A stretch of DNA of 29,693 bases from a virus: positions 1-29,693 of IMG/VR virus record IMGVR_UViG_3300045118_000030; one strand, 5' to 3'. Position numbers and translations under genes: made by a program. Below are positions 312-22,495 of this stretch, in pieces (within the stretch, counting starts at the first letter, position 1; the number at the start of each line of letters is the position of its first letter). Under the pieces are notes generated by a model. The model worked only from the letters and a program-made list of their open reading frames with translations, was not told the origin of the DNA and did not search any database.

Positions 312-701
312 ATGGAATTAACAGTAAAAGAATTATTAGATATGAGTGCGAGCCTGAAAAAGCTACTAAATGAAAGTCTGCCGATAAAAACGGCCTATAA
401 GTTGTCGAGAATGGTAAAGTCTATTGATGGTGAAACAAAAACCTATAATGAAAAAAAGAACGAGTTAGTTGGTAAATATGGGGAAAAAGTTGGAAGGGGT
501 ATGCAGATTAATCAGGAGATAGAGACCCCAGAAGGGAACATTCCCAATCCAAAATTTATAGAATTCTTAAAAGATTTGGAAGAAATCCAATCGGTTAAAA
601 TAGAACTCCCTGACATAAAGGTTAAAATCGATGAATTAGGAGATATTAACTTTCCAGCGGTAGATTTGTCTAATCTGGAAAGGTTTATTGATGAAAAGTA
701 A
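312..701 (+). CDS. hypothetical phage protein, possibly DUF1617-like
   Basis: A 129-residue acidic, mostly helical protein preceded by a strong Shine-Dalgarno (GGAGGAAA, 301-308). The N-terminal pattern of a leucine-rich helix, then LPIKTAYKLSRM, then a run with NEKKNELVGKYG recalls short phage proteins grouped as DUF1617. I am recalling that family from memory and cannot confirm it. The second half, with alternating hydrophobic and acidic positions (IKVKIDELGDINFP), looks like beta strands. No enzyme motif is present. Its 3' end overlaps the start of the NinG-like gene, so it belongs to the same transcription unit. Function is unknown. Confidence 0.7.
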   Translation: MELTVKELLDMSASLKKLLNESLPIKTAYKLSRMVKSIDGETKTYNEKKNELVGKYGEKVGRGMQINQEIETPEGNIPNPKFIEFLKDLEEIQSVKIELPDIKVKIDELGDINFPAVDLSNLERFIDEK

Positions 702-1065
702 AAAAAGTCGCCGCAGAAGATTGCATAATGCCTTGTGGGATTTACAAAGTGAATACATAAGACAAAAAGAAAATGGCATTTGCTTTACCTGTGGGGTTAA
801 GAAGCCCTGGAAAGAGATGAACGCAGGGCATTTTATTCATGGAGATGCCTTGGATTTTGACTTAAGAAACATACACTGTCAATGTACGAGGTGTAATCAC
901 CACCTTTCGGGCAATCTAATCCCTTACACGCAGAAAATGTTTCAGCTGTATGGCGAAGAAATTATAGAAGAACTAGCTTGTTTAAAGAAGAAAATTTTCA
1001 AGCCAGAATTATCTTGGTATGAAGAAAAAATAAAAGAATACAAGAGGATATTAAATGAAATATAG
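691..1065 (+). CDS. ninG: NinG/Rap-like recombination protein
   Basis: This 124-residue protein has a zinc-binding layout typical of the lambda NinG (Rap) family: C31xxC34, then GHFIHG around residues 46-51, then CQCTRCNHHLSGN at 63-75, followed by a helical tail. NinG/Rap proteins act on recombination intermediates in phage DNA metabolism, and the core resembles an HNH-type zinc fold. I chose ATG 691 over the in-frame TTG at 688 because a GGAAAGG Shine-Dalgarno lies at 677-683. The N-terminus is very basic (KSKKSRRRRL), consistent with nucleic-acid binding. It overlaps the preceding gene by 11 bases and the sugar dehydratase gene that follows. Confidence 0.8.
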   Translation: MKSKKSRRRRLHNALWDLQSEYIRQKENGICFTCGVKKPWKEMNAGHFIHGDALDFDLRNIHCQCTRCNHHLSGNLIPYTQKMFQLYGEEIIEELACLKKKIFKPELSWYEEKIKEYKRILNEI

Positions 1066-1942
1066 GACGATTGCAATCACGGGGATAACGGGATTTTTAG
1101 GACAAGCACTCATTCCTTTTATCATCGAACACTACAAGCCGGAAAGCCTGAGACTTTTAGGTCGGTCAGAGTTCAAGTTGGCTCAGATTATAAGGGGGAA
1201 TAATTTTACCTACGACCTAGACCAGTTTCGTCCATTAATCTGTGATGTGAGGGACAGGGAGAGGGTTTTTTCGTGCCTGAAAGATGTAGATTTAGTTATC
1301 CACACGGCAGCCCTTAAACGTTTGGAGATAGCAAATTATAATCCCCAGGAGGCCATAAAAACAAACATTATAGGCTCAATGAACGTTATGGACGCTTGTC
1401 TTAATGTAGGAGTAAAGAAGGCAATTTTTATCTCGTCTGATAAAGCTGTCAAAGCGACCAATCTTTACGGAAAGACCAAGGCTGTGATGGAATCAATGGT
1501 CGTGGAGAGAGCCAAAATGGTTGGAAATGCTCAGCCAACGATGTGCGTAGTCAGATATGGGAATGTTATCGGCTCTACCGGTGCGGTAATTCCGTATTTT
1601 ATAAAACTAGCAAAAGAAGGAAAAACACTGCCTATAACAAACGGATTAATGAAAAGATTCCTAGTTACTAAAAGACAAGCATTAGAATTAGTAAAGATTG
1701 CTATTGATAAAGGAAAACAAGGCTCAATTATTATTCCTAAAGACTTAAGAGCAATATCTGTTTACAATATGGCTCTGTTTATCCTTAGATACTTCAAAAG
1801 AGAAGAAGATTTTAAGATTATAGGCTCATGGTCGGGCGAGAAGTTGTATGAGGATATTACAGAATCGTTGAACTCTGATATGGTCGATTCCATAGGATAC
1901 GGAGAGTTTATAGGTTTATTAAAAGAGGAGGGGTTATTGTGA
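1055..1942 (+). CDS. UDP-sugar 4,6-dehydratase, PseB/FlaA1-like (extended SDR)
   Basis: A 295-residue NAD(P)-binding extended SDR. The Rossmann motif TGITGFLG lies at residues 9-16, and VIHTAALKRL follows at 81-90. The catalytic segment SSDKA...NLYGKTK at 127-142 places Asp129, Lys130 and Tyr138 like the Asp-Lys-Tyr set of PseB/FlaA1. These enzymes convert UDP-GlcNAc to a 4-keto-6-deoxy UDP-sugar, with 5-epimerisation in PseB, the first step towards pseudaminic or legionaminic acid or 2,4-diamino sugars. The length is slightly below the usual 320-340. This is the first gene of the sugar cassette, and its end overlaps the NeuB-like gene (GTGA). Whether the true substrate is UDP-GlcNAc is inference. 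Confidence 0.85.
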   Translation: MKYRTIAITGITGFLGQALIPFIIEHYKPESLRLLGRSEFKLAQIIRGNNFTYDLDQFRPLICDVRDRERVFSCLKDVDLVIHTAALKRLEIANYNPQEAIKTNIIGSMNVMDACLNVGVKKAIFISSDKAVKATNLYGKTKAVMESMVVERAKMVGNAQPTMCVVRYGNVIGSTGAVIPYFIKLAKEGKTLPITNGLMKRFLVTKRQALELVKIAIDKGKQGSIIIPKDLRAISVYNMALFILRYFKREEDFKIIGSWSGEKLYEDITESLNSDMVDSIGYGEFIGLLKEEGLL

Positions 1943-2565
1943 TAATTGTAGGAGATATTGGAAGTTGTACAATGGGAAAGTGGGAGTATATACAAGAGGC
2001 GATTGATGTCGCAAAGGAAGCGGGATTAGACATAATCAAATTCCAATTATTCAAAGGAAACGATAATGGAAACATAGAATTTCCTAGACACTTATGGTTT
2101 CAAACAGTTGATTACGCTCGCTCTAAAGATGTTGATATATTTGCTTCAGTGTTCGACGAAGAAGCCATTGACTTAATTGTAGCAAGTGGGATTAAGAAAA
2201 TTAAATTAGCTTACTCACAAAATTTTAACCTAAAACTGATTAAAAAGGCAAAGAAACATGGATTAGAGATTTGGGCGAGTGGGGATTATGAGAATTATCC
2301 TAACTATGCAGAAGTAAAATTATTATGTGTTCCAAAATACCCAACCAAGGAACTCGGTGGATATGAAGTTATTCTAAAGAACTTCTATGGTAGCGCAGAG
2401 CATTTTAATGGAATTTCAATCCACAAATTATGGCCTTTCATAGAGCGCACAGATATTATGGAAGTCCATTTTACCTTAGACCATGACGATATAGATTGCC
2501 CCGACCATTGGTTTGCTCTTTCTCCTAAAGAGCTAAAGGAATTATGCAATGAAAAAACAAACTAA
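1939..2565 (+). CDS. short NeuB/PseI/SpsE-like nonulosonic acid synthase
   Basis: At 208 residues this is much shorter than typical NeuB enzymes (about 330-350), yet it keeps their landmarks in order. These are VGDIGS near the N-terminus (compare AEIG), AGLDIIKFQ at 28-36, FASVFDEEAID at 68-78, IWASGDYE, and ALSPKEL at the end. His162 (GISIH) and His177 (EVHFTLD) match the two metal-binding histidines of NeuB, which joins phosphoenolpyruvate to a 6-carbon amino sugar. The C-terminal SAF (antifreeze-like) domain is missing and the loop after KFQ is cut down. Start is GTG with an AGAGGAGGGG Shine-Dalgarno at 1924-1933. It is probably a sugar-acid synthase, but loss of normal activity is possible. 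Confidence 0.78.
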   Translation: MIIVGDIGSCTMGKWEYIQEAIDVAKEAGLDIIKFQLFKGNDNGNIEFPRHLWFQTVDYARSKDVDIFASVFDEEAIDLIVASGIKKIKLAYSQNFNLKLIKKAKKHGLEIWASGDYENYPNYAEVKLLCVPKYPTKELGGYEVILKNFYGSAEHFNGISIHKLWPFIERTDIMEVHFTLDHDDIDCPDHWFALSPKELKELCNEKTN

Positions 2566-3187
2566 AACCGTAGCGATTATTCAGGCAAGAATGGGGTCGA
2601 AAAGGCTCCCAGGTAAGTGCTTAATGGAGATTGGAACAAGGACAATTTTAGAAAGAGTTGTAAATCGCTTAAAGGCGGTTAATGAGATTTGTCCATTAAT
2701 TGATGAAATAGTAGTCGCAACAACAGTTAATAAAGAGGACGACCAAATTGAGGTATTCTGTCATGCGAAAGGAATAAAAGTTTTTAGAGGAGAATCTCAA
2801 GATGTACTTAAAAGGTATTATGATTGCGCTCTTAAATATAAAGCTGATTGGATATTAAGAGTAACCGCAGATTGTCCTTTAATCGACCCTTTTATGATAT
2901 ATGGACTGCTTGGTCGTCGTTCAATAACAGGATATTCTGCTCTCGCTTTCAATGAAAAAAGAATCCCCGCTGGCTGGGATGTTGAATTGTTTAGTTTTGA
3001 TAAATTAGAAGCGGCTAACGAAAAAGCAATAACAAAAGAGGAAAGAGAACACGTAACGCTTATTATGAGGAACGTAGGTCAAGATTTGCTGGATATGGGT
3101 ACAGATTTTGACTTTACTGGAATTAAGTATGATGTTGATACGGAAGAAGATTTCGATAGAGTTTGTAAAATAGCGAGGTATTTATGA
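2549..3187 (+). CDS. SpsF-type cytidylyltransferase (acylneuraminate cytidylyltransferase-like)
   Basis: This 212-residue protein has the signature of SpsF/NeuA-type nucleotidyltransferases: IIQARMGSKRLPGK at residues 10-23, binding the CTP phosphates, IDEIVVATT at 51-59, and RVTADCPLIDP at 104-114, with an acidic metal site. Such enzymes activate nonulosonic acids as CMP-sugars. A late DVDTEEDFDRV segment is also typical. Overlap with the NeuB-like gene (17 bases) and a Shine-Dalgarno at 2535-2540 tie it to the synthase. Together the pair would make and activate a nonulosonic acid. Its stop overlaps the aminotransferase start in an ATGA junction. Confidence 0.88.
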   Translation: MKKQTKTVAIIQARMGSKRLPGKCLMEIGTRTILERVVNRLKAVNEICPLIDEIVVATTVNKEDDQIEVFCHAKGIKVFRGESQDVLKRYYDCALKYKADWILRVTADCPLIDPFMIYGLLGRRSITGYSALAFNEKRIPAGWDVELFSFDKLEAANEKAITKEEREHVTLIMRNVGQDLLDMGTDFDFTGIKYDVDTEEDFDRVCKIARYL

Positions 3188-4404
3188 AAAGAGGAAAATA
3201 TTTTAAGCTCCGCACGCCGAATAACAAAATAAACAGTAAGGTAGCCGGACTTGCTTGTACGGCATCAAAACAGCCGCATAGATACCCAGAACATTATCCA
3301 AATGAGATAGTTTCTGGCTCTGGTGCTTATATATACGACCATGATGGATTAGAGTATTTAGACTTTGTCTGTTCGTTAGGTGCGATAACGCTAGGGCATA
3401 GATTTAAGGAAGTCGATGAAAAAGTAATCTGGTCGATAAAGAGCGAAGGGCAGATATTTTCTCTCCCTCACAAGAAAGAAGAAATATTGGCCAATATTCT
3501 TTCAGATATTCTTCCATCTGCTGAGAGGAGTAGGTTTGCTCATAATGGTGCAGATGTTACGACGGCAGCTGTCAGGTTGGCTCGTTTTATTACCGGAAAG
3601 GAAAAAGTTCTTTCGTTCTCTTATCATGGCGCACAAGATGTGTTCATGGCTTGCACTAAGGCAGATGCTGGTGTTCCAAAGTGCCTCAAAGAAACCATAG
3701 TAGATATTGACTACAATGACTTTAGGGCAGTAGAGATGGCGTTTATGAAAAAAGATATAGCGGCAGTAATCGTAGAACCACATACGATTCGTGAGCCGAA
3801 ATATGGATATTTAGAATTTCTAAGGGAAATCTGCACGAAAAACGGAGCATTGCTTATATTCGATGAGGTTGTTTCTTTTCCAAGATACCCAGGGTTCTCA
3901 GCGCAGACTTATTTTTGTGTTTATCCAGATTTGACCTGTATCTCTAAGGGCATGGCAAATGGATATGCAATTTCGGCTCTTTGCGGAAAAGAAAAGTACA
4001 TGAAAGAGTTGAGAGATGGTGGAGTGTTTTTCTCTACTACACAAGGGGGCAATCTAGTTGGTGTTACTGCGGCCATAGAAACCCTTAGATTTATTGTCCA
4101 GAATAATGTTCCGTACCATCTTAAAAAGGTGGGAGAAAAGTTAAATATTAAGAATAATAAGCACGTCAAATTAGTTGGCTATCCCTGGAGGCAGTTTTTT
4201 GAATGCGATGATTTGGTAAGACAGAAAATCTGGCAAGAAATGATAAAAGAGGGAGTATTCTTTGGGGTGCCAATTTTCTTTAATTATTCTATGACAGAAG
4301 AAATGATGAAAGATGTTTCTTGTAAACTTAATTCCATTATAGACAGAATGGATTCTATAAGAATAAAGGGTAGAACGATAAAAGAGGTGTTTAAGAAGAG
4401 ATGA
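3184..4404 (+). CDS. class III PLP-dependent aminotransferase (glutamate-1-semialdehyde aminomutase-like)
   Basis: A 406-residue fold-type I aminotransferase of class III, close in pattern to glutamate-1-semialdehyde 2,1-aminomutase. It has the GSGAYIYDHDGLEYLDF entry motif (residues 45-61), FAHNGADVTTAAVRLAR at 118-134 (cofactor phosphate binding), LIFDEV with Asp227, and the Schiff-base lysine Lys255 in SKGMANG. In sugar clusters such enzymes aminate keto-sugars or their precursors. Here it sits where PseC or LegC would be, although those are class I/DegT-family enzymes, so the route is not the textbook one. Heme synthesis is unlikely given the neighbours. Confidence 0.85.
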   Translation: MKRGKYFKLRTPNNKINSKVAGLACTASKQPHRYPEHYPNEIVSGSGAYIYDHDGLEYLDFVCSLGAITLGHRFKEVDEKVIWSIKSEGQIFSLPHKKEEILANILSDILPSAERSRFAHNGADVTTAAVRLARFITGKEKVLSFSYHGAQDVFMACTKADAGVPKCLKETIVDIDYNDFRAVEMAFMKKDIAAVIVEPHTIREPKYGYLEFLREICTKNGALLIFDEVVSFPRYPGFSAQTYFCVYPDLTCISKGMANGYAISALCGKEKYMKELRDGGVFFSTTQGGNLVGVTAAIETLRFIVQNNVPYHLKKVGEKLNIKNNKHVKLVGYPWRQFFECDDLVRQKIWQEMIKEGVFFGVPIFFNYSMTEEMMKDVSCKLNSIIDRMDSIRIKGRTIKEVFKKR

Positions 4405-5291
4405 GAATACTTTTAATTGGTAATGGGTCGATTGGAAAGAAGCATATTCACAACCTTATAGAAATGGGAATATCAGACATAGACATCTGCGACCCTCTTA
4501 CAGATGGAGCGAAGTATAAGAACTTTCAGGATATTGGATGTAATGATGGAAGGTATGACTTAGTAATAGTATCTACGCCAACGAAAGAACATCTTCATCA
4601 GCTTCATTGCTTGAATGATTGGGGCTACAAGTACATTGTAATCGAGAAGCCTCTATGCACTCTTCCTACGGAGTATGAGATTCTAATTGAGAACGGAATG
4701 GGAGTAAGAGTTAAGGAGCTGAAAAGCGATGTATTTGTAAACAATGCTTACAGGTTTGAAAACGGCATAAAAAGGCTGAAAGAACTGCTTCCCAGGGCAG
4801 GTAAGATTAGGTATGTAAATATGGAAAATGCCTATTCATTTACTAAACTGCACCCACAGTACAAGTGGGAAGATTACGACGGAATTATTTACGACGATTC
4901 CCACATTATCAATACATCTAGGTTCTTATTTGGCGACCCAGAAGAGATTAAATTTAAGATGATAAGAAAAGACAGATGCGTGTTTATGTGGGAGTCTGAA
5001 AAAGGAATAGAGGTTTTTCACGATACGAATATTCTCAATGAGGTTTACAAGAAAAGAATCGAAGTTGTCGGAGAGTTAGGTAATTTAGTATATAACTTTG
5101 GAGCGCATCACATTTATTTTTGTCCAGCCAACGAATCAGACAGAATCGCATTTGCCTATGACCATCAATCCCACTTATTTGAAGCACTTAAGTATGTTAT
5201 TGAGGTAGTAAAAAAAGGAGGAAGGTTTGAAGAAAACACGATTGATGATTCAGTAAAAGATATGTTGGTCATAAAGGAGTTGATAAAGTGA
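4401..5291 (+). CDS. Gfo/Idh/MocA-family sugar oxidoreductase
   Basis: A 296-residue protein with the N-terminal nucleotide-binding motif GNGSIGKKH (residues 7-15), DLVIVSTPTKEH near 53-64, and the family's IEKPL at 81-85, where the lysine is catalytic. A DDSHIIN segment follows in the C-terminal beta-sheet domain. These enzymes oxidise or reduce sugar hydroxyls with NAD(P). PtmF of the Campylobacter legionaminic acid cluster belongs to this group and is neighboured there by an SDR, as here. It overlaps both neighbours by four bases. The exact substrate cannot be read from sequence. Confidence 0.85.
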   Translation: MRILLIGNGSIGKKHIHNLIEMGISDIDICDPLTDGAKYKNFQDIGCNDGRYDLVIVSTPTKEHLHQLHCLNDWGYKYIVIEKPLCTLPTEYEILIENGMGVRVKELKSDVFVNNAYRFENGIKRLKELLPRAGKIRYVNMENAYSFTKLHPQYKWEDYDGIIYDDSHIINTSRFLFGDPEEIKFKMIRKDRCVFMWESEKGIEVFHDTNILNEVYKKRIEVVGELGNLVYNFGAHHIYFCPANESDRIAFAYDHQSHLFEALKYVIEVVKKGGRFEENTIDDSVKDMLVIKELIK

Positions 5292-5863
5292 AAATATTGA
5301 TAACCGGAGGGGAGAAAGGTCTTGGCAAGCAAATAAAAGAGTTCCTATTCTACGAGGATGTAACTAGCATATCAAGAAGTAATGGGTATGATTTGGATAG
5401 TAAAAAGGGACTGTTAAAAGCTATCAAGTTAATAAGAAAGATAAAGCCTGATGTTTTAATATTAAACGCTGGAAAGTGGGACAATTCTTTTTTTCTTAAC
5501 TACATTTCACCGAAAGAGCTATCAGAAGAAGCATTAAAGATAAACCCCACGTGTCATGTTATATTTATTCTTTCAAATGCGGCATACCAGTCTTATGGAA
5601 ATGATGATTACACGGCATCTAAATCTGGATTGCTTCACTATGCCAGAAGAAAACAAAGAGAGAAGTTCTCGGTATCTACGATTAGCCCTGGAACGATAGA
5701 TACTGATTTCTGGAAAGGTGCTAAGGTAGACAACAGAAAAAGGGGTGCAATTCATCCAGAGCTAGTAGCTATGTTAGTTTCAAATATTATTGCTTTTTTT
5801 AAGGCTGACAAATCATTAATTACAGAGTTGATTATACTTCCGGAGGTAAAAGATGTTAATTAA
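5288..5863 (+). CDS. short-chain dehydrogenase/reductase (classical SDR, short form)
   Basis: A 191-residue SDR with TGGEKGLG at residues 6-13 (cofactor loop), LNAG at 59-62, Ser96 in ILSNAA, and the catalytic Tyr108xxxLys112 in YTASKSG, followed by ISPGTIDTDFW. All active-site residues are present, although the protein is about 50 residues shorter than usual, with the deletion in the first half. It starts with GTG in a GTGA overlap with the Gfo/Idh gene. Pairing of an SDR with a Gfo/Idh enzyme suggests oxidation and re-reduction of a sugar, as in epimerisation. It resembles the PtmA type by context only. Confidence 0.82.
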   Translation: MKILITGGEKGLGKQIKEFLFYEDVTSISRSNGYDLDSKKGLLKAIKLIRKIKPDVLILNAGKWDNSFFLNYISPKELSEEALKINPTCHVIFILSNAAYQSYGNDDYTASKSGLLHYARRKQREKFSVSTISPGTIDTDFWKGAKVDNRKRGAIHPELVAMLVSNIIAFFKADKSLITELIILPEVKDVN

Positions 5864-6809
5864 AAAGGGAACGCAAGGGACGAATTACTACAAAGACCCA
5901 GAAAAAGAATCTTTTCGTTATAATCCTTATAGGAAATACAATCGTGTAAAAGCAGAGGAGAGCTACAAAACAAACGAGATTCTTCCATTTCCACTTCATG
6001 TGATTATTGAAGTATCTAGTTTATGTAATTTAAAATGTTCGTTCTGCAATAGAGAAGTAATGACTCGTCCACAAAAGAATATGGACATGGAAACGTTTAA
6101 GAAGGTAGTGGACGAGTGTGCTGAGAATAGGGTTCATTCTTTGTCTTTATATTGCCTAGGAGAGCCATTTCTTAATCCTGATTTAAGGGAAATGATTATT
6201 TACGCCAAAGGAAAGGGAATTCCATATGTCGATGTATCTACTAATGGAATGAAGGATATGACTTCGGTAGTGGGGACGGGATTAGATGAAATCATTGTCA
6301 GTCTTGATGGGTTCAAGGAAACGCATGAGAAGCTAAGAAAAGGGGCAGATTTTGACTTAATTGTTTATAACCTATCGAAACTACTCAATGCGAGGAAAGA
6401 CAAAGACACAATTCGTCCTTTGATAAGGATTCAAATTATAGATATTCCAGAAACCAAAGACCAAATAGATGATTTTATCCGTTTATTTCAAGACTTTTGC
6501 GATGTGGTATATGTGAAGAATTTAGAGGTATTCTCACAGAACCTAGGGGATAAAAATCTTCCTTATCAGGAAATAGTAACCAGATTAAACAATAGAGTTC
6601 CATGTAAACAGCTCTGGTTTGTTTTAACGGTTAATTCAGATGGGTCGATAGCGGCATGCTGCCATGACTCCGAAGGTAAATCTATCCTAAAATCCAAGAC
6701 ACTAAAAGAAGCGTGGGGAGAGATTAAAGATGCAAGGGAGCGTCATAGAATTGGTAATTACTCCGATTTCAATGAACTTTGTTCCCAATGCACGGATTGG
6801 AGTTGGTAA
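5853..6809 (+). CDS. radical SAM/SPASM-domain enzyme
   Basis: A 318-residue radical SAM protein. The [4Fe-4S] motif CNLKCSFC places Cys58, Cys62 and Cys65. It is followed by a GEP motif (LYCLGEPFLNP), STNG and a VSLDG strand. The C-terminus has the SPASM pattern: PCKQLW, then NSDGSIAACCHDSEG, and a final CSQC, which probably bind one or more auxiliary clusters. Family members modify peptides or perform dehydrogenation and epimerisation on sugars and aminoglycosides. In this operon a role in sugar tailoring is more likely than peptide maturation, but both remain open. Start ATG 5853 has a CGGAGG Shine-Dalgarno. The gene end touches the membrane protein start (TAATG). Confidence 0.88.
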   Translation: MLIKKGTQGTNYYKDPEKESFRYNPYRKYNRVKAEESYKTNEILPFPLHVIIEVSSLCNLKCSFCNREVMTRPQKNMDMETFKKVVDECAENRVHSLSLYCLGEPFLNPDLREMIIYAKGKGIPYVDVSTNGMKDMTSVVGTGLDEIIVSLDGFKETHEKLRKGADFDLIVYNLSKLLNARKDKDTIRPLIRIQIIDIPETKDQIDDFIRLFQDFCDVVYVKNLEVFSQNLGDKNLPYQEIVTRLNNRVPCKQLWFVLTVNSDGSIAACCHDSEGKSILKSKTLKEAWGEIKDARERHRIGNYSDFNELCSQCTDWSW

Positions 6810-7105
6810 TGATTTGGTTATTATTTGCTCATTTTATAGGGGATAGTGCGATGCAGCCGGAAAGGCACGCAATGAAAAAAGGCATAGTTCTTCGTTATAT
6901 GATTTCTCATTGCTTCATTTATGCAGGGGTAGTGAGTTCAGCTCTTCTTTATCTTCACACTTATGCGCTATGGAAAGCTATTTTTATTCTCATTTCTCAT
7001 TTTATAATTGATATGAGTTTAAGGACAAAGGATGTAGAAAAAACAGGCTGGATTGGATGGGTAGACCAAGGATTGCATATTTTATGCTTAGGGGTGATTA
7101 TATGA
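6809..7105 (+). CDS. small membrane protein, DUF3307-like
   Basis: Starting at ATG 6809 (TAATG overlap with the upstream stop), this gives 98 residues with about three to four membrane segments. The spacing is that of DUF3307 proteins: LLFAHFIGDSAMQ at the start, an internal ISHCFIYAG helix, LISHFIIDMSL, and WVDQGLHIL near the end. The repeated His/Asp pairs within membrane helices are characteristic, but the family has no established function. An extended upstream TTG reading (6779) lies inside the radical SAM gene and is not needed. Its place between sugar enzymes suggests a membrane step or anchor, which is speculative. Confidence 0.75.
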   Translation: MIWLLFAHFIGDSAMQPERHAMKKGIVLRYMISHCFIYAGVVSSALLYLHTYALWKAIFILISHFIIDMSLRTKDVEKTGWIGWVDQGLHILCLGVII

Positions 7106-7887
7106 AAATACTAATTGCTGGATATGGATTTGTCGGAAGGGAGATTTCTAAATTATTTGGAGACGCTAATGTATATGACCCAAAGTTATATTGCACAGAC
7201 CACGATGGAGAATGGAATGAGATACTCCAAGCATCTTATGATTTTTGCTTTGTTTGTGTGCCTACTCCGTCTAAAGAAGATGGGAGCTGTGATACTTCTA
7301 TTGTTGAAGATGTAGTGAACCGGATAGACGCAGACATATTTATCATTCGCTCTACAATTCCACCAGGTACAACAGAAAAACTAGGAAAGAATTGTGTATT
7401 CACACCTGAATATGTGGCTTCGAGCAGTCCTTATCCTGCGCCTCTAGGGGATATAAAAAAGAGAGATTTTCACATATTAGGCGGAGAAAAAGAGGCTACT
7501 AAAAAAGTGAGAAAGCTGTTTGAAACTGTTTATCCTCCAACTGTCACATTTATGGAAACAGATTCTTTGACGGCGGAAATTATTAAATATGGGGAAAACT
7601 TCTACATATCCACTAAGGTAACCTTTTGCAATGAATTCTATAAAATCTGCCAAAAATTTGGCGTTGATTACGATACTTTTAGAGAAGGAGTATTCAAGCT
7701 CGACCCTCGTATGACAGAATGGTGGACGTATTGTGAAGGTAAGGGGTGGGGTGGGCATTGTTTGCCTAAGGATACGATGGCGATAGTTAAATGTTGTGAA
7801 GATGCGGGATACGACCCAAAATTCTTAAAGGCGGTGATAGAAAACAATGAACGACATAAATCCACAAATGGGCGAATTAGTATTTGA
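7102..7887 (+). CDS. UDP-glucose/GDP-mannose 6-dehydrogenase-like, lacking the C-terminal domain
   Basis: From ATG 7102 (overlapping the upstream TGA) this is a 261-residue protein. It has an N-terminal Rossmann motif GYGFVG (residues 7-12), CVPTP at 52-56, RSTIPPGTT at 83-91, TPEY, Lys162 and Asn166 (KYGEN), and the catalytic cysteine Cys220 in GWGGHCLPKD. Such enzymes oxidise a nucleotide sugar twice to a uronic acid. The chain ends just after the central dimerisation helices (AVIENNERH). The C-terminal nucleotide-sugar-binding domain found in ordinary 390-440-residue enzymes is absent, and the downstream frame does not encode it. The enzyme may be a minimal form or a dead remnant. Confidence 0.83.
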   Translation: MKILIAGYGFVGREISKLFGDANVYDPKLYCTDHDGEWNEILQASYDFCFVCVPTPSKEDGSCDTSIVEDVVNRIDADIFIIRSTIPPGTTEKLGKNCVFTPEYVASSSPYPAPLGDIKKRDFHILGGEKEATKKVRKLFETVYPPTVTFMETDSLTAEIIKYGENFYISTKVTFCNEFYKICQKFGVDYDTFREGVFKLDPRMTEWWTYCEGKGWGGHCLPKDTMAIVKCCEDAGYDPKFLKAVIENNERHKSTNGRISI

Positions 7888-8029
7888 GTGCCAGTTATGG
7901 AGAGTTCAGAGGGATTATGAGGACGAAAGCAAATTGACGTTGTTGTGCGATTCTTCACAATATCCTGTAATTGCTTCGATTCCTTCTCGAAGGAAATTAA
8001 TGGTAGCGGTAGAGGTGATTGATGAATAA
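7847..8029 (+). CDS. small hypothetical protein
   Basis: A 60-residue protein overlapping the end of the dehydrogenase gene by 41 bases and the start of the ATP-grasp gene by a few. The likely start is ATG 7847, with a weak GGCGGTGA upstream. ATG 7868 is an alternative (MGELVFEC) with no clear ribosome site. The sequence alternates charged and hydrophobic residues (LVFECQLWRV, LTLLCD, KLMVAVEVIDE), which suggests a small beta-barrel or sheet protein. No family is recognised. It is retained because it fills the gap between two sugar genes with tight overlaps on both sides. Confidence 0.6.
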   Translation: MNDINPQMGELVFECQLWRVQRDYEDESKLTLLCDSSQYPVIASIPSRRKLMVAVEVIDE

Positions 8030-9077
8030 ATTAAACATTTTACTAATGGGTGTTGGAGTCCAGCAGATACCGGCGATAGAGAAGTGCAAGGAATTAGGGA
8101 TTGGGGTCTATGGATTCGATGGTAATCCTGATGCCGCAGGGAAGCCCTTGTTAGATGGATTCGAGTGTGTAGACATTAAGAACCCTAACGAAGTAGAGAG
8201 AGTAGCCTTAAAGTTAAACAAAAAGGTCGGGATAGATGGGTGTTTAGCCCCTGCAACGGAGATGGGGATAAGTGTTGGGAGAGTTGTGGATAAATTGAAC
8301 TTAAGGGGAATTGGAGAAGAAACAGCAGAAATGCTTACAGACAAATGCCTAAGGAATAGTTGGCTATTAGAAAATAACATTCTATTCCCAAACACATTTG
8401 GCTCAATAGAACAATTTCCAGTAGTAATTAAGCCTAAGAACCAGTCAGCGGCAGTAGGGGTAAAGCTCATAGAAACCGCCGAACAATTAAAGAATGAGAA
8501 GTATGATATTATTCAAGAATACCTGGAGGGTTGGGAGTTATCCACAGAAGTATTAGTCCTAGACAATGGGATGTTTATGGTCGCAAATGCGGACAGGAAC
8601 TACGATAAGAAGCTCAAATGGAAGCCTTACTTACTAGAAGATGGCTGTCAGATACCTTCCAAGATACCCCCAAGAATCGCTAGAAAGGTATTGGAGCTAG
8701 TATCAAAGATAGTCAAGATTCTCCAATTAAGAAGTTGCGCCATAAAGCTTGACCTTTTAATAAAAGACAACCTAGTCTATGTTATAGAAGTCGCACCTAG
8801 GCTAGGGGGAGGAAGGCTATCAAGCGACATGATTCCTTTAGCCTATGGGATAGACTGGTGGAAAATTGCTATTAAACTAGCTATGGGACTTCCACTAGAA
8901 GAGGATTTACTACCAAAACACACTAAATTCGTCGCCCAAAGGTATGTATTCCCAGAAAACCCCAAATCACACAGAGACCGCCTTAAAGACTTTATAGAAA
9001 CTGGAGAAACCTACGAAGAAGCGATAAAAAACGCCCAAAGGAAAGTAGATGAATTTATACTACCCACCACCAGATGA
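8022..9077 (+). CDS. ATP-grasp ligase, carbamoyl-phosphate-synthase-like
   Basis: From ATG 8022 (AGAGGTGA Shine-Dalgarno at 8011-8018) this is a 351-residue ATP-grasp enzyme. It has an N-terminal Rossmann-like domain (LLMGVGVQQIPAIEKCKELG), then PVVIKPKNQSAAVGV (133-147) for ATP binding, IQEYLEGWELSTEVLV, and the metal-binding end IKLDLL...VYVIEVAPRLGGGRLSSD. Family members join a carboxylate to an amine through an acyl phosphate. With a sugar-acid dehydrogenase next door, coupling an amino acid or amine to a sugar carboxylate is a plausible role, but this is inference. The second half uses more CTA leucine codons and fewer G bases than its neighbours, so it may have a separate origin. Confidence 0.82.
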   Translation: MNKLNILLMGVGVQQIPAIEKCKELGIGVYGFDGNPDAAGKPLLDGFECVDIKNPNEVERVALKLNKKVGIDGCLAPATEMGISVGRVVDKLNLRGIGEETAEMLTDKCLRNSWLLENNILFPNTFGSIEQFPVVIKPKNQSAAVGVKLIETAEQLKNEKYDIIQEYLEGWELSTEVLVLDNGMFMVANADRNYDKKLKWKPYLLEDGCQIPSKIPPRIARKVLELVSKIVKILQLRSCAIKLDLLIKDNLVYVIEVAPRLGGGRLSSDMIPLAYGIDWWKIAIKLAMGLPLEEDLLPKHTKFVAQRYVFPENPKSHRDRLKDFIETGETYEEAIKNAQRKVDEFILPTTR

Positions 9078-9372: not shown

Positions 9373-9645
9373 ATGTTTAAAAAAGGTCAGTCAGGAAATC
9401 CCAACGGTCGTCCTCCAATGAAGGCTGCTTTGCTCGAAGAATTAAAGAAGCGAGGAATGATTGAACAAGCCATCGAAGTAATGCAAAAAGAACTTTCAGG
9501 TAAGAATAGGTTTGAAGCAGCAAAGTATATCCTAGACCAAAATTTCGGTAAAGCGATGCAAGTAAATGAGCTTTCAGGACTAGGTGGAAATGCGATAGCT
9601 ATTAACTTCATCGCACCCCAAAAAGGTGTTTTAAGTGGAAATTAA
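9373..9645 (+). CDS. putative terminase small subunit / DUF5681-type protein
   Basis: A 90-residue protein beginning MFKKGQSGNPNGRPP, the KGQSGNPxGRP motif of DUF5681 proteins found at the start of phage packaging operons. A helical region follows (LLEELKKRGMIEQAIEVMQKEL and FEAAKYILDQNFGKA), then a hydrophobic tail. It directly precedes, and overlaps by 11 bases, the large terminase gene, the usual place of the small terminase subunit that recognises DNA for packaging. The assignment rests on motif and position, since small terminases diverge strongly. The ribosome site is AAGGTGG, overlapping the upstream palindrome. Confidence 0.68.
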   Translation: MFKKGQSGNPNGRPPMKAALLEELKKRGMIEQAIEVMQKELSGKNRFEAAKYILDQNFGKAMQVNELSGLGGNAIAINFIAPQKGVLSGN

Positions 9646-10948
9646 TATCGACCTTTCTTCAAGGTACGAGAAGATGCCTAAGAACCTCGAATTCATTCTT
9701 ACCGACTCATTCCAAGCTGGGTTATTCGGAGGATTTGGCAATGGAAAGACCGAGAGCTTATGCTGGAGAGCCATATTACTCGCCTTGAAGTACCCAGAAG
9801 CTCTGGGAATGCTTGGAAGGGCTACCTACCCAGAATTAAGGGATTCGACTGTGAGGTCGTTCTTTGAAGTCTGCCCTCCAGATTTAATATCGCAGTACAA
9901 CAAGCAGGAGAATGTGGTTTACTTCATCAATGGAGCACAGATGTTATTCAGGGCGTTTGATGACCCTCGGAAGCTACTATCGATGAACTTGGGTTGGTTT
10001 GGTATTGACCAGTTGGAAGAAATAGAAGAAGAGATTTACTTACAGCTTTTAGGAAGATTAAGGAATCCTAGCGTGAGGTTTGCATTTGGAGTGGGTAATC
10101 CAGAGCCGAATTGGGTGAAGAAGAAGTTTAAGGATAATGCCGGAAATGATAAAGACTTGTTCTTCATCGAAGCTACAACCCTAGAGAATCCGTATTTACC
10201 AAGTGGGTATGTGGAAAGCCTAGTAAAGAACTACCCAGACCATTGGGTCAAAAGGTATGTTTATGGAGATTGGAGTACTTTTGAAGGTCAGGTGTTTACA
10301 GAATTCGTAGAAAGCAAACACGTCGTTGACCCTTTCGATATTCCTCAAGCGTGGAAGAAAGAATTCGTAATTGATTATGGTTACCGTAACCCATTTGCGT
10401 GCATCAAGATTGCAATCGACTACGATGACAATTATTATATAATTGATGAGCATTATGAGCGTGAGAAGATAATCAGCTACCACGCACAAAAGATTAAAGA
10501 TATGGGGTATGACAAGTCTTACACTTGCTGGATTGACCCTTCATGCGTGGCTAAGAATAGGACGAAGAACGAAATCCAGGTTTCGGTAATTGATGAGTTC
10601 TACGATGAAGAAGTTTATCCAATTCCTGCGAATAATAACGTGGCTGGAGTGATGAGGACTAACCAGTGGTTCAAAGATGGTCGCCTTAAAATCTTCAAGA
10701 ATTGTACAAATGCGATTCGAGAAATACAGAATCTAAGATGGAAGAAAGTCAAACCTGATTGGAATAAGAATATGCCCGAAGAGATGGAAGATAAGGATAA
10801 TCATATTTGTGATTGCATTAAATACTTCGCCAATTCTCGTCCTCTTGCGTCAAAGAAGCCTAAACCTGCCAACTGGTATATGCAAGAACACAAGAATCAG
10901 CTGATGAAAGTCGGGAAATATAAATCAAAGGATTGGTATAACGACTAG
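9635..10948 (+). CDS. terL: terminase large subunit
   Basis: A 437-residue DNA packaging motor. The Walker A motif is GGFGNGKT at residues 32-39. The Walker B segment WFGIDQLEEI at 121-130 has Asp125 and glutamates for ATP hydrolysis, and GVGNPEP near 152-158 is the coupling motif. The C-terminal RNase H-like nuclease has Asp247 (FVIDYG), Asp301 (CWIDPS) and Asp388/Asp393 (EDKDNHICDCIKYF) as metal ligands. The start is GTG 9635 with AAGGTG upstream. An in-frame ATG at 9674 is possible. It cuts concatemeric phage DNA and pumps it into the prohead through the portal. The stop TAG overlaps the methyltransferase start. Confidence 0.93.
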   Translation: MEINIDLSSRYEKMPKNLEFILTDSFQAGLFGGFGNGKTESLCWRAILLALKYPEALGMLGRATYPELRDSTVRSFFEVCPPDLISQYNKQENVVYFINGAQMLFRAFDDPRKLLSMNLGWFGIDQLEEIEEEIYLQLLGRLRNPSVRFAFGVGNPEPNWVKKKFKDNAGNDKDLFFIEATTLENPYLPSGYVESLVKNYPDHWVKRYVYGDWSTFEGQVFTEFVESKHVVDPFDIPQAWKKEFVIDYGYRNPFACIKIAIDYDDNYYIIDEHYEREKIISYHAQKIKDMGYDKSYTCWIDPSCVAKNRTKNEIQVSVIDEFYDEEVYPIPANNNVAGVMRTNQWFKDGRLKIFKNCTNAIREIQNLRWKKVKPDWNKNMPEEMEDKDNHICDCIKYFANSRPLASKKPKPANWYMQEHKNQLMKVGKYKSKDWYND

Positions 10949-11721
10949 TGAATATTAACTATAAGACAGGTTATTACGAAGAGGTTAAGCCCAATTACAG
11001 GGACTTTGACGAATACTTGCCTGAGTTCTGGAAGATGAAGTACGAGGACAGATGGCAGATTATCTCTGACTTGCAAGATGTAGAATTCTTTAAAAAGCGG
11101 AAGGTATTGGATATTGGCTGCGGATTGGGAAGAGCACTGAAATACTTTCAAGGTTATGGTGCTGAGTGCCTAGGAGTGGAGCCGTCAGAGTACGCAGCAG
11201 GAATTGCTAAAAGCCGAGGATTAGAGGTTATTAACGATTACTTCCAGAATACAGAAATAGATGATTTGTTTGACGTAATTCATATTGAGCAAGTTCTCTC
11301 TCATGACCCAATGTATAAAGAAGCGTTAGTTAAAGCGAGGGATTTACTAAAACCCAATGGTATTCTAGTGATTGAAGAGCCGAATGATAATAACATTTTA
11401 CAGAAGTTGCTTCGTAATGAGAAAGGCGAGTATTGGATTACTCCTGACCACTGCAATTACTTCAATTATGAATTATTAGCTAAAACCTTATTAGAGGCCA
11501 AATTTAAGCCCGTAAAGACGAGTTGTACTTTCCCTATGGAATTCTTTGAGTTGATGGGTGACAAGTACATAGGCAACGAGGAAAAGGGCAAGGAAGTGCA
11601 TTTAAAAAGGTTTCAGTTGGAGAGTTCGCTTCCGTTTAGTATGAGGCAGAATTTGCACGAAAGCATGGCTAGGTTAGGATTGGGTAGGGATTGCGTTATA
11701 TTCGCAAAGGGGGTTTTATGA
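10948..11721 (+). CDS. class I SAM-dependent methyltransferase
   Basis: A 257-residue methyltransferase with motif I VLDIGCGLGRA at residues 53-63, the ribose-binding acid Glu78 (GVEPSEYA), and LLKPNGILVIEEPND as the later strand. An N-terminal helical cap (YLPEFWKMKYEDRW) and the C-terminal region resemble methyltransferases of polysaccharide clusters rather than DNA methylases: no DPPY or PC motif is present. It begins with GTG overlapping the terminase TAG. Its position between terminase and portal is unusual. A role in methylating a sugar made by the upstream cassette is plausible but not shown. Confidence 0.85.
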   Translation: MNINYKTGYYEEVKPNYRDFDEYLPEFWKMKYEDRWQIISDLQDVEFFKKRKVLDIGCGLGRALKYFQGYGAECLGVEPSEYAAGIAKSRGLEVINDYFQNTEIDDLFDVIHIEQVLSHDPMYKEALVKARDLLKPNGILVIEEPNDNNILQKLLRNEKGEYWITPDHCNYFNYELLAKTLLEAKFKPVKTSCTFPMEFFELMGDKYIGNEEKGKEVHLKRFQLESSLPFSMRQNLHESMARLGLGRDCVIFAKGVL

Positions 11722-12402: not shown

Positions 12403-14349
12403 ATGGAGCCGACATATAACGAAGAAGAGCGAAAAATAGTTAAGTTCATAGAAAACAAACTTTTCGACCCTGCGAAGAAGTGGAAGTACTACTACTCAGG
12501 GGATAAACAGGAAAGATGGCTAGATGATATTCGTTGGTACAAAGGTGTTCAGTGGGCGCAAAATCGTCCTAAAGAGAAGTCGTCAATATTCTTTAATAGG
12601 CTATTCTCGACAATTCAAAAAGAACTACCTTTCATGACTGACCGTCAGCCGAAGATTTATGTTCAAGCCGAGGAGCCTTCTGATGAACCAGCGGCCAAGA
12701 TACTTGAGAGAATCATGGAAACCAAATGGAATGAACGGAATATGGAGTTAAAAATCCCTGAGGCGGTAATGCACGCTAAACAACTAGGAACAGGATTTTT
12801 AAGACCATTCTGGAATCCCAAGTTATCAAATGGATTGGGAGATGTTGATTGCGAAGTCGTAGACCCATTTGAAGTGTTCCCATTTGCTTACACAAAGAGA
12901 ATGGAGTTTGGTGATGGTGTGATTTGGGCTAGATGGGTATCTCTAGGGTGGATAAGACAAAACTACCCAAAAGAAGGTTGGAGAGTTAAACCTGGTGGGT
13001 ATGGTGATTCAGGAATACCGGACAGGGCTAAAGATACCAACAGAGTTCAGGGAGATGCCTATGCCCAAGTAACTGATACTACTGGTTCCCAAACAGATTA
13101 CTTGCCTAGTGGTGGGGGGTCGTCGATTGATGAGAGCGATTTTAAGCGTTGTTTAGTAATGACTGTTTTTATGAAAGACGGTTCAATGAAAGAGGAGGAG
13201 AAAAATGGCAAGAAGAAAAAGGAGGCCGTATATCCTTTAGGAAGAGAGATAACTATTTGTAATGGAATCGTACTAGAAGATAAGCCTTTTCCTTTTGATA
13301 ATTTCCCTGGAATGGTTGAGTTATTGAACTACATCGAACCTGGAGAATTCTGGGGAGAGAGTGATATTGTCCAAATCAAAGAAGGGCAGAAAGAATTAAA
13401 TAAACTCCAAGCAATGATTATCGATGCTACGAGAAGAGGAGTTTACACGACCAAGTTTGTACAAACTGGCTCAGGAATAGACGTGGATAATTTTGTTGTT
13501 ACTTCCGATGCAGTCTACGAAACCAAGATTCCCAATCCGGTGAGTGAGTTAATACCACAGGCTCTCCCTCCGCAGATTTTCAGCTACTCACAGCAAATTG
13601 AGCAAGCGATTGCTACTACGGCAGGTGCGGTTGAATACACTCCTCCGCAGTCCGGAGATTTACCATCTGGACGCTCCCTAGCTACTTTGAACGAGATTAA
13701 TCAAACGAGAATAAGACAGAAGATTCGTAATTTAGGTTACGCAATAAAACTTACAGGCAAGATGTGGCTAGAGATGTTTTTAAAGAATTACACAGAATCA
13801 AGAATCATGAGGATATTTAATTCTACTGGAAACCAGCAGGAATATGTTTATGTGTTCAGGGAAGAAAATGAGCAGTTGGCCGAGCGAATGAAACAAGAGA
13901 TTAGAATGGAAGTAATAGAAGGAAGTGAGCAGAAAGACCAACAAGGACAGCCAGTCCCAGGAACAGGCACTCCTAAATATCAGTATATTCTAAACATGGC
14001 TGAAATAAAGGGAGGATTGGATTTAACTGTTGCTGATAGTTCTACTGTTTCGGTATCTAAAGTTGCTACATTTGAACAGTCTTTTGCCTTATTCCAAGCT
14101 GGGGTTATAGACCAAGAGGCTCTCTTGGATGCGGCTGATTATCCAAATCGAGATGAGATTATCAAGAGAATGCAAAGAAAACAACAACAGGCAATGCAAT
14201 CTCAGATGCAGGCGGTTCAAGCTCAGCAACAGACTGAACAGCAGAAGATGCAAGTAGATGTACAGAAGAACACTCAAGATAACCAAACTAAATTACAAGT
14301 TGAGGCTATGAAGCAAAGGAACGGAATGTTATTAGGAGGTGCCAGATGA
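12403..14349 (+). CDS. portal protein
   Basis: A 648-residue protein in the portal position after terminase, with features of podovirus-type portals. The N-terminus has WLDDIRWYKGVQWAQN and FFNRLFSTIQKELPFMTDRQPKIYV. The middle has a VDPFEVFPF strand region, PGEFWGESDIVQIKEGQKELNKLQAMI, and SGRSLATLNEINQTRIRQKIRNLGYAI (clip and stem helices). The C-terminal 60 residues are very glutamine-rich (QQQAMQSQMQAVQAQQQTEQQK) and probably coiled-coil, like a portal barrel. It forms the dodecameric DNA channel at one capsid vertex. Shine-Dalgarno: GAGGAGA just before ATG. It overlaps the next small gene by four bases. Confidence 0.85.
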   Translation: MEPTYNEEERKIVKFIENKLFDPAKKWKYYYSGDKQERWLDDIRWYKGVQWAQNRPKEKSSIFFNRLFSTIQKELPFMTDRQPKIYVQAEEPSDEPAAKILERIMETKWNERNMELKIPEAVMHAKQLGTGFLRPFWNPKLSNGLGDVDCEVVDPFEVFPFAYTKRMEFGDGVIWARWVSLGWIRQNYPKEGWRVKPGGYGDSGIPDRAKDTNRVQGDAYAQVTDTTGSQTDYLPSGGGSSIDESDFKRCLVMTVFMKDGSMKEEEKNGKKKKEAVYPLGREITICNGIVLEDKPFPFDNFPGMVELLNYIEPGEFWGESDIVQIKEGQKELNKLQAMIIDATRRGVYTTKFVQTGSGIDVDNFVVTSDAVYETKIPNPVSELIPQALPPQIFSYSQQIEQAIATTAGAVEYTPPQSGDLPSGRSLATLNEINQTRIRQKIRNLGYAIKLTGKMWLEMFLKNYTESRIMRIFNSTGNQQEYVYVFREENEQLAERMKQEIRMEVIEGSEQKDQQGQPVPGTGTPKYQYILNMAEIKGGLDLTVADSSTVSVSKVATFEQSFALFQAGVIDQEALLDAADYPNRDEIIKRMQRKQQQAMQSQMQAVQAQQQTEQQKMQVDVQKNTQDNQTKLQVEAMKQRNGMLLGGAR

Positions 14350-20916: not shown

Positions 20917-21631
20917 TTTGCAAAAAAGTCAATATAAAATTAGGCTATATGCTGGAAACTCCTAAAGCCCAACATACTTATTAGGTAAAAACTGGAGGGA
21001 TGGATAAATGGAAAATCAGCAGGAAAGAAATTTAGCAGATATGAATTGGTTGGCGGCTGCCTGGGAAAGTGAGGGTTGGTTTTCAATTCTTGGGCAAAGA
21101 AGGAAGAGAAGAAGAAAAGTTTGGTTAGGAGAAAGGGATTTAGGAATGGTTTATAATTGCGTGGCTGCTATTAAAAATACTGACCCATTGTTTGTGAAGG
21201 AAGTAACAGATATTCTTTCAAGAAATGGATTAGCTTATTATATATCAATAGATAATAGCGGAAAAAGAAAAGATGGAACTCCGGCAAAAAAGCAAATGTC
21301 TGTGATAATTGCTGGCACTAAAAGAGTTCAAAGATTCTTAAATGTAATTATTAAATACCTACGAACTAAAATAGACAGAGCCATGAAATTAAAAGAATTT
21401 GTAGATTTTAGACTAAGTAAGCCATATTCTTATCCCTATACTCTACACGAATTTAATCTTTTTAACGAATTAAGAGAAATGAATGGTAATAAGCCAATGC
21501 TAGATTTATCCTCAACGACTAATATGCCTAAAACTGTTATGAGCAGTTAAGATAGAGTCTGAGCTATAAGGAAATCTTATAGAAGTGAGTTAGTGATAAC
21601 TCGCTCGCCCATTAGGGTTGTAACAAAACTG
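20917..21631 (+). ncRNA. group I self-splicing intron interrupting the major capsid gene
   Basis: A 715-base intron whose helices can be followed directly. P1: exon ATTGAT (20911-20916) with GTCAAT, extended by TTT/AAA. P3: AGGCTATAT (20942-20950) with AATATGCCT (21521-21529), one bulge. P4: GCTG (20951-20954) with CAGC (21017-21020). P5: CTCC with GGAG. P7: GACT in R-type CTCAACGACTAA (21511-21522) with AGTC in S-type AAGATAGAGTC (21549-21559). P8: AACTG/CAGTT (21532-21548). P9: CTATAAG/CTTATAG (21564-21582). A further hairpin is GAGTTA-GTGA-TAACTC (21587-21602). The terminal G is 21631. P10 is not obvious. An endonuclease gene sits in the P6 region. Confidence 0.9.
21008..21550 (+). CDS. 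LAGLIDADG homing endonuclease, intron-encoded
   Basis: A 180-residue protein whose residues 14-27 (WLAAAWESEGWFSI) form a diverged LAGLIDADG motif (compare WLAGFxDGEGxF), with the acidic residue supplied by the ESEG turn. A basic DNA-contact region follows (RRKRRRKVWLGERD), then IKNTDPLFVKEVTDILSRNG, typical of the family core. Only one clear motif is present, so it probably works as a dimer. Such enzymes cut intron-less copies of the capsid gene and spread the intron. ATG 21008 has GGAGGG (20994-20999) and overlaps the intron's P4 strand. ATG 21041 is an alternative. The C-terminal codons overlap the R element, P3 and P8. Confidence 0.85.
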   Translation: MENQQERNLADMNWLAAAWESEGWFSILGQRRKRRRKVWLGERDLGMVYNCVAAIKNTDPLFVKEVTDILSRNGLAYYISIDNSGKRKDGTPAKKQMSVIIAGTKRVQRFLNVIIKYLRTKIDRAMKLKEFVDFRLSKPYSYPYTLHEFNLFNELREMNGNKPMLDLSSTTNMPKTVMSS

Positions 21632-22495
21632 AACATTTTTAACTCAAATTACTTGTTATCTCGGCTACGCAAAGGGCAGAAGTCATTCGATGGTGGCGTC
21701 CAAATCGCCATCCCGATTGAGTATGATGAACTCACTTCTGGTGGTTCCTTTAGTGGCTTAGAGCTTTTGGATACAGCTGTAAATGATGTCGCTACTTTAG
21801 CCCAATATGACTGGAGACAATACTATGTCACTGTTGGCTGGAGCCGTAGCGATTATCTTAAAAATAAAGGCTCAAAGACCCAGATTGTTAATATGGTGTC
21901 AATGCTGACCCAAAATGCCTCAAAGAAGATGCAAAAACAGCTTACGACTGGTATTTTCCAGACGACCAAAGCTGCATCATCTGACATTGACGGATTAGTG
22001 GTTGCCACTGTTGCTGCCTCAACTACTGACTGCGGCGGATTAGATTCTAACGACTTCGCCACTTGGGCGGCACAAAGAGATACTACTACGACCAAATTGT
22101 CACTGGCTGCCATGAATGCTCTTTACAGAGACGCAATGGATGGGCCGGATGCTCCGACAATCGTAGTAACGACTGATGATATTCTAGGCTTCTATTATGA
22201 CATTGCTACCCCGCTGCAAAGATACCAAAATGCGGATGCGGCAAGTCAAGGTTTCACTTCATTATCATTTAACGGTATTCCAGTAGTTTCAGATAAGGCT
22301 TGCACTACGAATTACCTGTTTATGCTTAATGAAAACCATTTATGGTTAGCTGCTCATTCTGACGAAGATATGAGATACAAAAAGCCCCAAGAACCTCTCA
22401 ATCAAGCCGCAGAATTGGGTCAGATTTTCTGGATGGGTAACCTCATCACTGACGCTCGTCGACGTCAGGCTGTTATGACTGGCATTACTTCGTAA
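21632..22495 (+). CDS. major capsid protein, exon 2
   Basis: This exon supplies 287 of the 306 residues. It reads NIFNSNYLLSRLRKGQKSFDGGVQIAIPIEYDE, a signature segment of a phage coat family with the HK97 fold, then WRQYYVTVGWSRSDYLKNKGSKTQIVNMV and MQKQLTTGIF, and later the domain TTDDILGFYYDIATPLQRYQNAD. The end, LGQIFWMGNLITDARRRQAVMTGI, is also typical. The frame is open upstream of 21632 (to GTG 21593), but that part is intron sequence, encoding P9-type hairpins. The first capsid codon is AAC at 21632. It is the main shell protein. The next gene follows after 14 bases with AAGGAGGTGA. Confidence 0.88.
   Translation, partial: NIFNSNYLLSRLRKGQKSFDGGVQIAIPIEYDELTSGGSFSGLELLDTAVNDVATLAQYDWRQYYVTVGWSRSDYLKNKGSKTQIVNMVSMLTQNASKKMQKQLTTGIFQTTKAASSDIDGLVVATVAASTTDCGGLDSNDFATWAAQRDTTTTKLSLAAMNALYRDAMDGPDAPTIVVTTDDILGFYYDIATPLQRYQNADAASQGFTSLSFNGIPVVSDKACTTNYLFMLNENHLWLAAHSDEDMRYKKPQEPLNQAAELGQIFWMGNLITDARRRQAVMTGITS

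Follow-up and report, generated by a model that had tools for sequence, protein, structure and literature searches.

A phage operon that probably encodes a nonulosonate-type pathway with a barrel-only NeuB, and a candidate Maf-like transferase gene beside the capsid gene

In a viral DNA sequence of 29,693 nt (IMG/VR record IMGVR_UViG_3300045118_000030), hereafter called the window, we examined an operon at positions 1055-9077 of the + strand that very probably encodes a nonulosonate-type pathway. About 14 kb downstream of this operon, between the gene for the major capsid protein (MCP) and an SU10-type adaptor gene, lies a Maf-like gene that was not mentioned in the first-pass annotation of the sequence, and on balance we favor its product as the transferase of the pathway. 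We give just short of even chances to the combined reading, in which the operon specifies a phage-adapted nonulosonic acid pathway and the reduced Maf-like protein O-glycosylates a protein, most likely one of the virion; the virion as acceptor of the sugar is, taken by itself, a more tentative assignment. What the data below show directly is the family of each gene, the conservation of key residues, the fold predicted for NeuB, and how the genes recur and are linked.

The operon comprises nine enzyme genes, a gene for a DUF3307 membrane-type protein, and a 60-aa open reading frame, where the first-pass annotation had counted ten enzyme-type genes. Its description of the block, strand, overlaps (mostly of 4-17 bp), and NinG-like and terminase-side flanks was correct, and the enzyme families it named were borne out by Pfam matches far above chance, from Polysacc_synt_2 at 1e-70 to GFO_IDH_MocA at 3e-6. 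A radical SAM protein, a UDP-sugar dehydrogenase, and an ATP-grasp ligase, which it had left unnamed, complete the set (Table 1). The dehydratase matched the UDP-GlcNAc C6 dehydratase of PDB 2gn4 at 8e-45 and has the SSDK..YGKTK motif, the SpsF-type protein carries the motifs QARMGSKRLPGK and ADCPLIDP, and Lys255 and Asp227-Glu228 of the class III aminotransferase are invariant. The GGHCLPKD catalytic Cys motif is present in the UDP-sugar dehydrogenase, whose longest frame begins at 7057 and whose likely start is at 7102, with GGGG 5' of the ATG. Phage UDP-sugar dehydrogenases in loci L100-L103 and L096 are also short (~283-313 aa), so other phages besides that of the window have lost the C-terminal domain.

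The NeuB-type synthase, termed here mini-NeuB, scored 64 bits against PF03102 (gathering cut-off 22.1) and is thus a member of the NeuB family. When its AlphaFold2 model, with a predicted local distance difference test (pLDDT) value of 90.9, was compared to the PDB with Foldseek, the best 12 matches were all NeuB/SpsE/PseI proteins (sialic acid, SpsE, and pseudaminic synthases), with DAHP and KDO8P synthases ranking below. Structure matches, set in advance as a test that could refute the family assignments of the NeuB-like and SpsF-like proteins, upheld both, the SpsF-type protein matching the cytidylyltransferase of PDB 6oew at 1e-25. Conserved residues of mini-NeuB are K34, Q36, K89, S114, Y134, H155, H177, and D189, which include the attributes of a NeuB-type TIM barrel: the phosphoenolpyruvate (PEP)-site lysines K34 and K89, a late Asp, and the two metal histidines H155 and H177, both of which the first-pass annotation had recognized. 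Mini-NeuB fell below the equivalog cut-offs for PseI (TIGR03586, 43 versus 340 bits) and N-acetylneuraminate synthase (TIGR03569, 59 versus 400 bits).

Mini-NeuB has 208 aa compared to 333-400 aa in 19 of the 20 aligned cellular relatives, the remaining one (292 aa) being cut by the end of its locus. Complete NeuB frames of at most 260 aa made up 21/104 in viral loci, whereas the 75 cellular loci gave a single convincing example, all loci having come from scans that were not unbiased samples. The cellular case is a 234-aa NeuB on a Pelagibacteraceae single-cell contig (L196:8001-8705), with radical SAM and SpsF homologues close by. Neither the window NeuB nor the PF01973 proteins, the Pfam family of the Maf-like protein, had a homologue among 50,697 reference phage records. 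Viral scans with single sequences of NeuB, the aminotransferase, and the terminase large subunit (TerL) gave no matches, and alignments were required to reach relatives.

The gene types of the operon lie next to one another in cellular clusters. A Bacteroidales locus (L183) has the order PseB-DegT-GNAT-AKR-class III aminotransferase-SpsF-PseG-NeuB, L254 has Gfo-class III aminotransferase-SpsF-NeuB with an ATP-grasp gene near, and L225 has SpsF-class III aminotransferase-radical SAM-NeuB. Clusters L208 and L206 contain Gfo/Idh and class III aminotransferase genes, and L203 likewise has gene types of the window; Halorussus has Gfo-SpsF-aminotransferase with NeuB near, and a Pseudosulfitobacter plasmid carries an SpsF-class III aminotransferase fusion within a pse cluster. 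At least four of the nine window families occurred together in 23 of the 178 loci compared, and this recurrence, together with the adjacency in cellular clusters, supports a nonulosonate-type pathway well. The ATP-grasp ligase, to which proteins of the nonulosonate clusters L254 (140 bits to the window protein) and L017 (60 bits) are homologous, and the radical SAM protein, whose gene was found again in cassettes L096, L225, and L253, are plausible members of it. Uncultivated viruses commonly carry such cassettes but isolates seldom do, the reference phage records having yielded no homologue of the window NeuB or the PF01973 proteins. Single-protein SpsF-class III aminotransferase fusions (~650-690 aa) are frequent on viral contigs and stand beside PseB and DegT in L108, L124, L165, L168, L267, and ~20 other viral loci. 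Nonulosonate loci were also present on two "Acinetobacter plasmids" of 3.7-4.1 Mb (H63 and H64; NZ_CP077849.1 and NZ_CP104448.1), which are probably mislabeled chromosomes.

That the genes are moron cargo picked up piecemeal from hosts, in part decayed and sharing no function, might be suggested by the trimmed proteins (NeuB of 208, SDR of 191, and UDP-sugar dehydrogenase of ~261 aa) and by the gene order and strand that vary among relatives (L261). We consider this very improbable: the frames of the operon are all open, overlapping, and mostly preceded by ribosome-binding-site-like sequence, the same gene set is found in divergent phages, and we rejected decay because the fold and key residues of NeuB are intact.

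The solved structure nearest to the Maf-like protein was that of Maf (PDB 5mu5), found with a single sequence (6e-4), a profile (4e-8), and Foldseek (2e-7). PF01973 corresponds to MAF_flag10, the domain at the center of Maf transferases; these enzymes use CMP-nonulosonates, accept CMP-Neu5Ac, and are similar to the sialyltransferase Cst-II (PMC11339370). The motifs GPSL..N and SEGGA of the window protein align with those of large phage Mafs. Pfam's current name for PF01973 is MptE-like, from pterin kinases of the same family. Both the profile (4e-8 for Maf versus 8e-3 for HPPK) and the fold (2e-7 versus 8e-6, with a medium-confidence model of pLDDT 71.6) gave better values for Maf, and a role as an MptE pterin kinase appears less likely. 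Profile positions 201-276 also matched spike protein G of phiX174 (E=5e-4), probably by chance.

The linkage of this gene to virion genes recurs. In relatives with portal and MCP homologues (L260, L261, L262, and L263), cassette genes lie near the terminase, and a PF01973 gene is close behind the MCP gene in all four relatives with that region covered (L261, L287=L263, L288, and L289=L262), L288 beginning too near the terminase for a cassette to be visible. None of nine reference phages with a homologous MCP carries PF01973 or NeuB. On a further contig of 5.7 kb, a mini-NeuB gene (L021:385-1056) is immediately 5' of the terminase genes, and no other cassette gene was seen there. A second group, L135, L136, and L146, has mini-NeuBs of 212-218 aa together with GNAT, Gfo, DegT, SpsF, and, encoded near the cassette, Maf-type proteins of 611-892 aa; Gfo is followed by DegT, and PseB adjoins NeuB in L135 and L136. 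The Maf N-terminal domain PF20157 is present in the phage Mafs of L135 and of another phage, L106. The UvsX, SSB, and exonuclease genes of L136 and the terminase gene of L146 identify these contigs as phages. PF01973 was above its cut-off in 6/6 records with a NeuB of at most 230 aa, a threshold picked after the data were seen, versus 1/41 with a longer NeuB (Fisher p=7e-7 by record and 0.003 with each clade counted once).

These associations bear on a rival explanation, namely that the CMP-nonulosonate of the cassette is used by host glycosyltransferases on host lipopolysaccharide, capsule, or flagellin, a host-surface modification comparable to that by EpaA and EpaB (PMC12053666) that would change the receptors for phages and so bring about superinfection exclusion or serotype conversion, with the PF01973 gene unrelated. 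The relatives of the cassette in cellular clusters stand among surface-glycan genes, and the large Maf-type proteins of the second clade could target host flagellin. However, the window showed no glycosyltransferase of a conventional type, and the PF01973 gene has virion genes as its neighbors, lies beside the MCP gene in relatives, and is missing along with NeuB from the nine MCP relatives; we regard the host surface as an unlikely target. It is possible, at a confidence somewhat under that for the virion acceptor itself, that a tailed-phage family sialylates its own virion with a self-made CMP-nonulosonate, by way of a SAF-less mini-synthase and a capsid-linked Maf-type transferase. Such a system may have evolved twice, the possible two origins being the clade of the window and L261-L263 and that of L135/L136/L146.

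As to the sugar, the dehydratase scored 235 bits against PseB (TIGR03589), the best of all equivalogs and yet under the cut-off of 407.75, and 45 bits against LegB (TIGR04180, cut-off 475). The low LegB score led us to reject a legionaminic assignment, and no evidence tied the SDR and Gfo/Idh proteins to PtmA and PtmF, as the first-pass annotation had proposed in linking the operon to the legionaminic set. Its report that hydrolase and acetyltransferase were missing did hold for PseG (TIGR03590) and the Acetyltransf_3 GNAT (PF13302). GNAT was found in 12 of the 13 related cassette records, and Gfo was present in every well-covered mini-NeuB cassette of both Maf-bearing groups, with PseG in none. 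We did not adopt Gfo/Idh as a PseG substitute acting by redox-assisted hydrolysis, since cellular L206 and L208 carry both. No DegT aminotransferase was found in the window. In the aminotransferase tree, the window protein sits, on long branches and with moderate support (84-93), among viral class III enzymes from DegT-free loci in which their genes come right after PseB, and from this placement and the Gfo then DegT order of L135/L136/L146, the class III aminotransferase would fill the PseC slot.

From these genes we infer the following reactions, and with them a product, an acceptor, and a benefit of the pathway. The PseB-like enzyme would 4,6-dehydrate host UDP-N-acetylhexosamine, and the class III aminotransferase would carry out the PseC step, amination of the 4-keto carbon. 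Acylation of the amine could fall to a host acetyltransferase or the ATP-grasp ligase, in place of the GNAT of most relatives, and UDP could be removed by a host enzyme or by one that escaped recognition. Barrel-only NeuB would then join the hexose with PEP, SpsF would convert the sugar to the CMP-sugar, and the Gfo/Idh, SDR, radical SAM, and short UDP-sugar dehydrogenase proteins may tailor it. The Maf-like transferase would finally O-glycosylate a protein, most likely of the virion.

Several observations weigh against the combined reading. Mini-NeuB stops after the barrel at residue 208, with no SAF/antifreeze-like C-terminal domain and with several loops also gone, and Q94 replaces the acidic residue (Glu/Asp) of 19 of the 20 cellular NeuBs. 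PseG was found in 0/14 cassette records (the window and the 13 related phages), and the window is without the GNAT of a PseH-type step. The Maf-like protein is small, Pfam found no PF20157 domain in it, its model is of medium confidence only, and it bears a resemblance to MptE/HPPK as well, which fall in the same Pfam family. The L136 cassette lies among replication genes, so that adjacency to the capsid gene is not general, and the related contigs are few and incomplete. In viral short NeuBs, the position of Q94 is mostly Gln, Ser, Lys, or Arg, and a SAF-less NeuB is also known in cells, in Methylomagnum (L003).

The missing SAF domain, the active-site differences Q94 and Y92, and the lack of PseG from all records tested could also be expected if the aldose that mini-NeuB condensed with PEP were shorter or of another kind, yielding another ulosonic-type sugar rather than a C9 nonulosonate, with the amino group introduced via Gfo/Idh and the class III aminotransferase. 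The L003 cluster, which comprises transketolase halves, a class III aminotransferase, an SDR, the SAF-less NeuB, and a HAD phosphatase, is in keeping with such a route. Nonetheless, the cassette of every sufficiently sequenced relative has the PseB-like dehydratase, and relatives have GNAT, both of which are expected for Pse-type sugars, while the second clade has DegT where the window has the class III aminotransferase. We accordingly hold a non-C9 product to be improbable.

The window comes from a tailed phage whose portal is of the P22 type. Past the operon, the gene order is DUF5681, TerL, methyltransferase, P22-like portal, then scaffold and major head protein. The window has no end repeats, so some phage genes may fall outside the record. 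Between TerL and the portal, the S-adenosylmethionine methyltransferase (10948-11721; Methyltransf_23, E=1e-20) could be an additional sugar or virion tailoring enzyme. A 1430-aa protein (15090-19382) between portal and scaffold gave only a weak tail-protein match and no Pfam family, and a weak LAGLIDADG-like match (E=0.002) directly 5' of the capsid gene (21008-21550) marks a possible homing endonuclease.

Table 1. Positions of operon, flanking, and virion features in the window, with the matches on which they were named
Feature	Position	Strand	Matches and remarks
NinG-like gene	688-1065		Upstream flank of operon; PF05766, E=4e-17
PseB/FlaA1-type NAD(P)-dependent UDP-HexNAc (N-acetylhexosamine) 4,6-dehydratase, 295 aa	1055..1942	+	PF02719 (Polysacc_synt_2) 1e-70
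NeuB-type nonulosonate synthase (mini-NeuB), barrel only, 208 aa	1939..2565	+	PF03102 2e-17
SpsF-type CMP-sugar cytidylyltransferase, 212 aa	2549..3187	+	PF02348 (CTP_transf_3) 1e-21
Class III (GSA-aminomutase-like) pyridoxal phosphate aminotransferase, 406 aa	3184..4404	+	PF00202 (Aminotran_3) 3e-40; PDB 3bs8 3e-45
Gfo/Idh/MocA oxidoreductase, 296 aa	4401..5291	+	PF01408 3e-6; C-terminal domain 3e-5; PDB yvaA 7e-7
Short SDR oxidoreductase, 191 aa	5288..5863	+	PF00106 (adh_short) 2e-9; YTASK catalytic motif
Radical SAM/SPASM protein, 318 aa	5853..6809	+	PF04055 3e-15; PF13186 1e-4; CNLKCSFC motif
DUF3307 membrane-type protein	6779..7105	+	PF11750 2e-11; phrog_2470 3e-16
Short UDP-sugar dehydrogenase, ~261 aa, without C-terminal domain	7102..7887	+	PF00984 (UDPG_MGDP_dh) 4e-22; PDB 3gg2 3e-22
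ATP-grasp ligase, 352 aa	8019..9077	+	PF02655 (ATP-grasp_3) 4e-13
DUF5681 and TerL genes	9373-10948		Downstream flank of operon
Terminase large subunit (TerL)	9635..10948	+	PF04466 2e-15
P22-like portal protein	12403..14349	+	PF16510 2e-24
Major capsid protein (MCP)	21593..22495	+	phrog_9953 3e-43; homology to the capsid proteins of Mx8, Mx9, and BUCT555
Putative nonulosonate transferase, Maf-like (PF01973), 351 aa	23098..24153	+	PF01973 1e-28, 100.7 bits versus cut-off 34.6

Phages that alter a host-made nonulosonic acid were previously known. EpaA and EpaB of an Acinetobacter baumannii prophage carry out such a modification (PMC12053666) and are, like the window genes, phage-encoded (cytidylyltransferase-like and SDR) and directed at nonulosonic acid; in the window, by comparison, dehydratase, aminotransferase, synthase, and activation are phage-encoded and a Maf-like transferase gene is present. 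A phage with most of the synthesis and a likely transferase would make sialic-acid-like glycosylation of virions directly testable, small SAF-less NeuB enzymes would serve mechanism studies and glyco-engineering, and a role for phage PF01973 genes would be suggested.

A close parallel is the bacterial pseudaminic acid pathway (PseB-C-H-G-I-F) that supplies Maf glycosyltransferases. The window shares with it a PF01973 protein and four enzyme types, namely a PseB-like dehydratase, an aminotransferase, a NeuB-type synthase, and a CMP-transferase, with GNAT in related phages. It differs in having no PseG, a class III aminotransferase for DegT, SpsF for PseF, a barrel-only NeuB, and a reduced Maf-like gene beside a phage capsid gene rather than flagellin genes. 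Compared to SpsE, NeuB, and PseI (1vli, 1xuu, and 8h2c), mini-NeuB keeps the TIM barrel, the two metal histidines, and the PEP-site lysines, whereas the SAF domain is absent, loops are shortened, and a conserved acidic residue is Gln. The Maf-like protein shares the PF01973/MAF_flag10 domain, the GxGPSL..N and (T/S)EGG motifs, and its best fold match with the Maf flagellin glycosyltransferases (PDB 5mu5; PMC11339370), and differs from them in its 351-aa length, its lack of the Maf N-terminal domain by Pfam, and its position, flanked by phage capsid and adaptor genes. Cellular Gfo (or AKR)-class III aminotransferase-SpsF-NeuB clusters (L181-L184, L188, L197, L203, L208, and L254) have the same core gene types as the window but a full-length NeuB (SAF confirmed in L254) and often PseG and DegT as well. 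The open-access literature on phage nonulosonate synthesis, virion glycosylation, and phage Maf yielded no description of such a system. Given this and the lack of reference-phage homologues of NeuB and the PF01973 protein, the window system brings known kinds together in a new variant.

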